In this document: positions 17,002-18,262 of the stretch, piece by piece | Position numbering within the stretch: position 1 is the first letter of the stretch | Layout of the letters: every line of letters starts with the position of its first letter | Assembly (NCBI GenBank): GCA_002780005.1 | Contig: PEWV01000062.1 | Location: 1-35,046, forward strand | From: Candidatus Aquitaenariimonas noxiae | GTDB taxonomy: Bacteria; Omnitrophota; Gorgyraeia; Aquitaenariimonadales; Aquitaenariimonadaceae | DNA length: 35,046 nucleotides | Direction of reading: 5' to 3' | Notes under the pieces: model-generated | The model's database searches: none | What the model was told of the DNA's origin: nothing | The model's input: only the letters and a program-made list of their open reading frames with translations | Made by a program: the position numbers and the translations under genes

Positions 17002-17901
17002 GTGAGCGTACTCGTAGTTGGTTCCATGGCTTTAGACTCGGTAGAGACACCCTTTGGAAAGCGCGACGATATACTCGGGGGCTCAGCCACATATTTTTCG
17101 CTTAGTGCCCGCTTTTTTGCAAGGGTTAGCCTGGTAGCGGTGGTGGGTCAGGATTTTCCAAGGAAGCACATCAAGCTCCTGGAAAATCATGATATAAACA
17201 TCGAAGGCCTTAAGGTAGAAACTGGGAAGACTTTCAGATGGGGAGGCAAGTACGGGTATGATTTGAATGTAGCCAATACCATATACACCCATCTTAACGT
17301 GTTTGAGACTTTTTCTCCGGAGATCCCCTCCAGCTATAAGGACATAAAATATGTGTTCCTGGCCAATATAGATCCGGATTTACAACAGAAAGTTTTGAGC
17401 CAGATGCGGAACCCCAAGTTAGTCGCCTGCGATACGATGAATTATTGGATAGAGAATAAGCGCAAGCCGCTTCTCGACCTGATCAAGTCGGTCGATATCC
17501 TTTTCTTAAACGATGGAGAGGCCAGGGAGCTTACAGGCGAGTTAAATCTGTTAAAAGCCATTTCCTGGATTTTTAAACGCGGGCCCAAGATGGTAGTGAT
17601 AAAAAAAGGCGAGCACGGGTCTATATTTGCCACAAAAGACTTCACCTTTTGCATCCCGGCATTTCCTATAGAAGATATTTATGATCCTACAGGTGCAGGC
17701 GATACCTTTGCCGGCGGTTTTTTAGGATGCTTAAATAAATATAACAAAATTACCGAAGGAACGCTAAGGAAGGCCGTAGCTTACGGGACAATAATGGCGT
17801 CTTTTGCAGTAGAAAGCTTCGGACCGGAACGGTTACTTAAATTGACGAATAAGGAAGTAGAATCCCGGTATAGAGATTTTCAAAGATTGACAAGGTTTTA
17901 G
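17002..17901 (+). CDS. PfkB family carbohydrate/nucleoside kinase
   Basis: A ribokinase-fold kinase of about 299 residues. The N-terminal glycine pair motif reads ILGGSATYFSLSARFF, and the C-terminal PfkB signature is DIYDPTGAGDTFAGGFLG, with the catalytic Asp in GAGD. The substrate is not decided by sequence: it could be a sugar or nucleoside, and since HMP kinases share this fold and thiC lies directly upstream, a pyrimidine substrate cannot be excluded. The frame is open from a TTG at 16993, but AAGGAGG (16985-16991) is 1 nt from the TTG and 10 nt from the GTG at 17002, so I use the GTG. Confidence 0.85.
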   Translation: MSVLVVGSMALDSVETPFGKRDDILGGSATYFSLSARFFARVSLVAVVGQDFPRKHIKLLENHDINIEGLKVETGKTFRWGGKYGYDLNVANTIYTHLNVFETFSPEIPSSYKDIKYVFLANIDPDLQQKVLSQMRNPKLVACDTMNYWIENKRKPLLDLIKSVDILFLNDGEARELTGELNLLKAISWIFKRGPKMVVIKKGEHGSIFATKDFTFCIPAFPIEDIYDPTGAGDTFAGGFLGCLNKYNKITEGTLRKAVAYGTIMASFAVESFGPERLLKLTNKEVESRYRDFQRLTRF

Positions 17902-17904
17902 TTC

Positions 17905-17910
17905 TATAAT
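17905..17910 (+). promoter_or_regulatory. possible -10 element for tRNA-Gly
   Basis: A perfect TATAAT lies 12 nt before the mature tRNA. A TTGACA at 17887-17892 is only 12 bp upstream of it, too close to act as its -35 in the usual geometry. The element may work with a poor -35, or the tRNA may be made as part of the pfkB transcript. Confidence 0.35.
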
Positions 17911-17922
17911 AAGTTTTTGACA

Positions 17923-17996
17923 GCGGGTGTAATTCAATGGTAGAATATCAGCTTCCCAAGCTGACTGCGTGGGTTCGATTCCCATCACCCGCTCCA
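17923..17996 (+). tRNA. tRNA-Gly (anticodon CCC)
   Basis: A complete cloverleaf can be drawn by eye. The acceptor GCGGGTG pairs with CACCCGC, the D arm is ATTC/GAAT around AATGGTA, and the anticodon stem TCAGC/GCTGA encloses the loop TTCCCAA with anticodon CCC, which reads GGG. The T arm GTGGG/CCCAT encloses TTCGATT, and the discriminator T is followed by an encoded CCA (17994-17996). The length is 74 nt including CCA. The 3' flank is unusual and is described separately. Confidence 0.95.
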
Positions 17997-18044
17997 GTGA
18001 ATGGGAATAAAGTGCAGGGAATCGAAGTGAACGAGCGCCGAGCG
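17976..18044 (+). repeat. 69-bp direct repeat, copy 1 (tRNA-Gly 3' end plus tail)
   Basis: This segment is identical over 69 nt to 18150-18218. It begins in the T loop of tRNA-Gly, includes the 3' acceptor strand and CCA, and continues about 48 nt downstream. It holds two inverted repeats against the tRNA itself: ATTCCCAT (17978-17985) with ATGGGAAT (18001-18008), and TTCGATTCCC (17974-17983) with GGGAATCGAA (18017-18026). Confidence 0.9.
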
Positions 18045-18114
18045 AATAGCGAGGAAAAGCGCATACATGCAATTTCGCAGAAGTTAGCGTCAGCGAGTGA
18101 GCGGCCGACCCGAA

Positions 18115-18142
18115 CACCCTGGCGAACGTAGTGAGCCGGGTG
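18115..18142 (+). repeat. hairpin in the tRNA-Gly tail region
   Basis: CACCC-T-GGC (18115-18123) can pair with GCCGGGTG (18135-18142) around an 11-nt loop, an 8-bp stem with one bulged T. No T run follows, so it does not look like an intrinsic terminator. Between 17997 and 18262 there is no credible gene: the stretch holds this hairpin, the two 69-bp repeats and several degenerate AGTGA/GAGCG-rich short words. Confidence 0.5.
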
Positions 18143-18149
18143 AGGGCGC

Positions 18150-18218
18150 CGATTCCCATCACCCGCTCCAGTGAATGGGAATAAAGTGCAGGGAATCGAA
18201 GTGAACGAGCGCCGAGCG
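18150..18218 (+). repeat. 69-bp direct repeat, copy 2 (tRNA fragment)
   Basis: An exact second copy of 17976-18044, displaced by 174 bp. It carries only the last 21 nt of the tRNA, including CCA, so it is not a functional tRNA. The copies diverge after their shared end but both run into a similar GCGAGGAAAA word. Confidence 0.9.
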
Positions 18219-18262
18219 GACGCGAGGAAAAACCCGCCTGCGCTAGAAGAAATTTATATTTT

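Follow-up and report, generated by a model that had tools for sequence, protein, structure and literature searches.

The window analysed here, a stretch of 35,046 nucleotides from Candidatus Aquitaenariimonas noxiae (Omnitrophota; GenBank assembly GCA_002780005.1, contig PEWV01000062.1, positions 1–35,046 of the forward strand), carries behind a tRNA-Gly(CCC) gene a repeat that we regard as probably a short, gene-less, structured mobile element targeting the T-loop of tRNA genes and of transfer-messenger RNA (tmRNA) genes. The element sits between tRNA positions 56 and 57, so that an intact tRNA lies upstream and a 17–21-nt duplicate of the 3' end of the same tRNA lies downstream. Near-identical cores are found behind different tRNAs, each accompanied by a 3' copy and by a "guide" that fit the particular host. 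Sister species differ by the exact presence or absence of the unit, which also amplifies in tandem by whole repeats. Throughout the family the order of the parts is intact tRNA, linker, guide (a reverse complement of host tRNA sequence that starts at T-loop position 57 and runs inward), structured core and second copy of the tRNA 3' end, and the size of the element ranges from about 90 to 200 bases. Prokaryotic tRNA genes often serve as sites of integration. In the window the parts are arranged as follows:

17923–17996 (+): host gene, tRNA-Gly with the anticodon CCC, intact, CCA encoded (ARAGORN; Rfam tRNA, 70.9 bits).
17977–17996 (+): duplicated 20-nt stretch GATTCCCATCACCCGCTCCA, the tRNA 3' end starting at position 57 (exact copies at 17977–17996 and 18151–18170; the boundary is the same in relatives).
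17997–18016 (+): linker from tRNA to guide, GTGAATGGGAATAAAGTGCA, unconserved between insertions (comparison of insertions).
18017–18026 (+): guide GGGAATCGAA, reverse complement of the tRNA T loop and of the 3' strand of the T stem, and predicted 5' strand of helix P1 (sequence; permutation test with 62 elements).
18024–18150 (+): structured core of 127 nt, GAAGTGAACG...GGGCGCC (match of covariance model R1 at 18018–18156, 105.9 bits; covariation).
18038–18054 (+): predicted hairpin P3, CCGAGC-GAATA-GCGAGG, with tandem G.A pairs, then conserved AAAAG (alignment A1, pair counts).
18103–18150 (+): predicted hairpin P4, GGCCGACCC ... GGGCGCC (alignment A1, pair counts).
18151–18170 (+): second, displaced copy of the tRNA 3' end, predicted 3' strand of P1 (exact copy; the original downstream flank adjoins this copy in sister species).
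18171–18231 (+): second tandem unit, truncated, with linker 18171–18190, guide 18191–18200 and the start of the core to about 18231 (direct repeat; complete tandem units with a period of 140–145 occur in loci L215, L224 and L213).

The initial annotation of this locus had described a tail complementary to the T arm of the tRNA and duplicated exactly over 69 nt at a distance of 174 bp, and both observations are borne out. GGGAATCGAA (18017–18026, and again 18191–18200) is the exact reverse complement of TTCGATTCCC (17974–17983), which the second element of the genome and the permutations reported below place beyond chance, and 17976–18044 recurs without a mismatch at 18150–18218 (spacing 174). 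An additional pairing, between ATGGGAAT and ATTCCCAT, is likewise present, but it lies within the linker, is unconserved in relatives and is hence incidental. The natural unit in the window has 174 nt and comprises the tRNA 3' end, linker, guide and core; the 69 nt are the part of this tandem unit that is still identical, the second unit being truncated, which accounts for the repeat, and diverged beyond that point. The window therefore holds a whole-unit tandem array with a decayed second unit, and the near-exactness of the repeat, formerly ascribed to copies "too recent or too constrained" to have diverged, is recast as the product of tandem duplication. The element has no open reading frame (ORF) of its own in the window. 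The sole overlapping ORF (109 aa, 17833–18162, minus strand, containing MGIEPTQSAWEADILPLNYTR) runs antisense to the tRNA and the element and is probably a spurious antisense-tRNA frame.

A search of the genome and its relatives for the unit, which had been proposed as a check, revealed recurrence behind many tRNAs and a second element in the same genome, on another contig (C43), 84% alike and located behind tRNA-Gly(GCC). The guide of this second element, GGTCTCGAA, fits TTCGAGACC of tRNA-Gly(GCC), its own host, and not tRNA-Gly(CCC). We examined the correspondence between guides and hosts in 62 elements anchored on the core, with the match counted from tRNA position 57 and compared to 5000 permutations; tRNA positions 54–56 are universal and therefore uninformative in this test. 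Complementarity to the own tRNA averaged 7.0 nt and extended over at least 6 nt in 55 of the 62 elements, and none of the 5000 permutations reached the observed mean (best: 2.97). At the variable tRNA positions 57, 59, 63 and 64 the match was 94, 92, 73 and 48%, as compared to 54, 33, 39 and 27% in the permuted sets. The guide spans tRNA positions 54–62, i.e. both sides of the insertion point, and guides from Treponema cover up to 17–22 nt of the tRNA. A tandem second element, in L064, has a guide that covaries with its own tRNA-end copy. The pairing had been expected not to be under selection if relatives kept the tail and lost the complementarity; what we found is complementarity retained while the sequence changes. 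In the linkers of L207, L021, L066, L104 and L219 the sequence TTTTATAAGGC or TTTTAAGGT is often seen about 10–15 nt upstream of the guide, and it possibly represents a promoter of the element.

Several comparisons bear on mobility. Genome G147 contains cores 90–98% alike behind different tRNAs, with differing guides, and wherever both ends are visible the guide and the tRNA-end copy fit each host. A nearly identical core is shared by the element behind tRNA-Val in L053 (guide GAGGACTC) and those behind tRNA-Leu in L058/L069 (guide GGAGTC), from two genomes. So few changes in the core leave little time for the guide to have adapted by point mutation, which suggests that the target serves as the source of the guide when the element inserts. 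The strongest test of mobility came from 12 species of a single genus (g18), whose tRNA-Gly(CCC) loci were compared for presence and absence. In most of the species without the element the tRNA end runs straight into another short repeat (the third or fourth family described below); species with the element have tRNA, linker, guide, core and tRNA-end copy, followed in three of them by the same repeat. When G345 is aligned with G329, positions 1–28 correspond to 1–28 and 8–191 to 144–327, which gives an insert of 136 bp, with 21 bp of the tRNA end (query 8–28) present twice, and G367 versus G139 shows the same pattern of insert and duplication. At this locus insertion is indistinguishable from precise loss, but in both cases the boundary of the unit lies exactly at T-loop position 56/57; either tRNA-end copy could be the new one, although the original flank is kept by the downstream copy in three species. 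Exact whole-unit tandem repeats are present in L215, L224 and L213, and the longer duplications at tRNA-Ser of G067, in L062 and in L029 fit remnants of tandem units. A target-site duplication that includes the linker, which had looked likely from the latter three loci, was rejected on the g18 comparison, which shows the tRNA end alone duplicated.

For the fold and the covariance model we aligned 20 elements (alignment A1). The predicted helices are P1, formed by the guide and the second tRNA end, P2 with a hairpin inside it, P3, a hairpin with tandem G.A pairs next to AAAAG, and P4. Two-sided changes occur in 20 of the 27 base pairs and 86.5% of the alignment cells are paired; the covariation score is 0.391, versus 0.113 for shuffled and at most 0.089 for slid alignments. 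Variation in P1 partly mirrors that of the tRNAs, and P2, the inner hairpin and P4 are independent of them: P2 consists of GCCAATTTT/AAAATTGGC in one family, and of GCGAGCGAG and a G.A-paired partner in others. It is this covariation, and only this, that points to an RNA-like fold.

At the DNA level, matches were detected in 35 of 147 relatives, and the covariance model built from the 20 copies was positive (E ≤ 0.001) for 108 of 384 Omnitrophota genomes, in which it counted up to at least nine copies each; these are minimum counts, as the model scored only about nine candidates in each genome. Nearly all loci that we retrieved lie directly behind a tRNA gene, with the same order of parts in most, and the hosts include at least 14 tRNA isotypes as well as tmRNA. 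An exact 25-nt core pattern run against GTDB genomes found matches in Omnitrophota, in Treponema and other Spirochaetes, in FCPU426 and in one further bacterium, several of them behind tmRNA genes. Plasmids gave no match to the element and viral contigs none to the exact core pattern, and in Rfam only tRNA and tmRNA reached the cut-off, with no credible match for the element even when E values up to 5 or 2 were admitted. We found no description of the element in the open-licence literature that was searched, albeit an earlier report elsewhere is possible; the family is apparently undescribed so far.

According to the reading that we favour, a guide-bearing element, either RNA or folded single-stranded DNA, would pair with the T-arm and thereby select or align the target, and an enzyme acting in trans would carry out the joining. 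The host tRNA would retain its function through the duplication of its end, and the guide would be copied anew from the target at every insertion. A guide complementary to both flanks of the insertion point meets the need of pairing-directed insertion, and also makes P1 with the displaced copy. We advance more tentatively, as a real possibility that may well not hold, that such elements form a new class, whose own folded nucleic acid pairs with the T-arm to direct insertion, whose guide is rewritten from each target and which can colonise any tRNA or tmRNA harmlessly. Several observations weigh against insertion of a mobile element at the T-loop. Neither an enzyme nor an autonomous partner was found: the complete genome G067 shows, up to 6 kb from its tRNAs, no element of greater length that ends in a tRNA-end copy, the reverse transcriptase domain RVT_1 is absent from 18 of the 22 genomes with at least five copies, and G213 (at least nine copies) lacks the Y1 transposase (Y1_Tnp). 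The pattern of presence and absence could partly be due to loss by recombination between the 20-nt repeats. Moreover, several insertions are old and vertically inherited (the tRNA-Leu locus in G080 and G213, tmRNA in Treponema), hence some of the sequence conservation could reflect function and not recent movement.

The anatomy described above, with both tRNA and tmRNA genes in use and precise presence or absence, could also be produced by a trans-mobilised micro-island, in which a tyrosine integrase, supplied by the host or by a resident phage or integrative and conjugative element (ICE), uses the T-arm as the core site and moves a minimal element. In islands and prophages of tRNA genes (tDNA) that depend on tyrosine integrases, the target is split near its 3' end, an intact target is regenerated on one side and the displaced fragment remains on the other (Islander, PMC4383910), and the same regenerated gene and displaced 3' fragment are found here. 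The known islands, however, are kilobases long and carry an integrase gene, whereas the elements of this family have 90–200 bp, are about 100 times smaller (the core in the window has 127 nt) and have no such gene. Besides, an attachment (att) core fixed to one tRNA cannot yield near-identical cores at many isotypes with host-matched ends and guides, and the conserved RNA-like fold and the host-complementary guide, the latter not described for islands, would be left unexplained. We therefore consider a micro-island unlikely. If, on the other hand, the guide and the displaced end formed the P1 helix of a functional RNA for processing or sensing of tRNA or tmRNA, i.e. a cis-acting or regulatory RNA of tRNA operons that is mostly inherited vertically and spread by recombination, then one would understand the strong structural covariation, the 3' copy that stays exact at the tRNA-Leu locus of two genera while core and linker diverge, the covarying guide of the tandem second element in L064, and the promoter-like and terminator-like sequences in some linkers. 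The fold competing with the cloverleaf that the initial annotation had proposed agrees with such a role in silico: for the precursor 17923–18030 ViennaRNA, a model without tertiary contacts or modifications, gives a probability of 0.99 to the pairing of the guide with the T-arm and of 0.01 to the T stem, and it is possible that tRNA maturation is affected. Joint transcription is nevertheless not general, as at least 10 of 35 long linkers contain a terminator-like hairpin between tRNA and guide, which suggests that the two are often on separate transcripts. The patchy distribution at one locus within a genus, the occurrence on any isotype, the multiple near-identical cores within one genome and the fact that most tRNAs of a bearing genome lack the element (guides at 5 of 39 tRNAs in G067) all speak against a regulatory RNA, which we find quite unlikely.

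A retroelement resembling short interspersed nuclear elements (SINEs), with the element RNA reverse transcribed at a T-loop nick by a trans-acting reverse transcriptase, would agree with the fixed 3' junction and with the small, structured, RNA-like core, and template switching could give the inverted target copy at the 5' junction. Yet RVT_1 is absent from the genome of the window and occurs in only 75 of the 384 genomes, without significant association with the element (28 of 108 bearers versus 47 of 276 others, p = 0.06; 4 of 22 genomes with at least five copies, p = 1). A resident reverse transcriptase is not required, and we judge a SINE-like origin very unlikely. The Y1 transposase is present in 303 of the 384 genomes. 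Neither enzyme is supported as a required partner by its distribution among the genomes. Finally, the window on its own shows a tandem duplication, but a chance local duplication with fortuitous complementarity, which the initial annotation had kept in view, has a practically negligible likelihood given a family in 108 of 384 genomes with covarying guide and fold, and we reject it. As for the suggestion of a small repeat that spreads by capturing tRNA ends, its first half stands, for the repeat is tied to tRNA ends, recurs at numerous tRNAs across many genomes and is, between related species, either present with exact boundaries or missing; the "capture" is better described as insertion at the T-loop with duplication of the tRNA end and a guide matching each host tRNA.

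Other known systems share single features with the element. Group I introns resemble it in their internal guide sequence: here, too, a guide is complementary to the tRNA gene on either side of the insertion point, and its halves are ordered as pairing with joined exons would require (the half at 54–56 being uninformative). In contrast to these introns, the core has about 85–180 nt and the complete tRNA is present without splicing; with respect to a group I catalytic core, no intron family appears among the matches that Rfam gave with E limits of 5 or 2. REP/BIME, ERIC and MITEs are short, multi-copy, hairpin-forming, non-coding repeats, apparently moved in trans. The element is likewise short, multi-copy, hairpin-forming, non-coding and apparently moved in trans, but it is found strictly at tRNA and tmRNA ends, has a target-matched guide and a 17–21-nt duplication of the tRNA end and, unlike REP/MITE repeats moved by Y1 transposases, is independent of that enzyme (G213). 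The bridge RNA or seekRNA of IS110 elements is a structured non-coding RNA with a short stretch complementary to the insertion target. The element, too, carries a short target-complementary stretch; it differs in having one guide only, which varies with the host tRNA, and in that no transposase gene was noticed adjoining it (for the DEDD type this refers to the adjoining sequence, a genome-wide search not having been made). The element lacks traits that define tDNA islands, group I introns, retroelements and repeats moved by Y1 transposases, although in part it works as the first two do.

Other sequences were also seen at tRNA ends. A second repeat family, TTCTGCTTCGCC...GCTTCGCAGAAATT..., begins exactly behind tRNA 3' ends and displaced copies, directly after CCA (L217, L219, L222, L223, L071 and L073, Omnitrophota). 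A third, TGAACCACTCGCTA...GGTTCATGGCAGGCC...GGTACAGGGCCAGAAC, follows directly after CCA at the tRNA-Gly(CCC) locus of g18 (L230, L235, L233, L229) and has no Rfam match. The fourth, GAATTTTGCCGAAGGCAAAATTCGTCC..., is joined after the CC of the tRNA end, with the last A of CCA missing (L231, L237, L232), and occurs twice in L232, each time behind a tRNA-end fragment. In L032 an ORF that by eye resembles a LAGLIDADG endonuclease (about position 1856, plus strand) starts about 18 nt after tRNA-Leu(CAA), where there is no guide element, and in L211 (about 1030–1080) a hairpin-like insert of about 39 nt interrupts a displaced tRNA end between the T-stem and acceptor sequences.

If the proposed reading is true, a universal site would be targeted in a novel manner, by an element of about 100–200 bases without genes that occupies the T-loop of almost any tRNA or tmRNA gene, leaves that gene intact and carries a guide matched to each host. 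For the annotation of genomes the family carries a warning, namely that tRNA-end fragments need not signal large islands.
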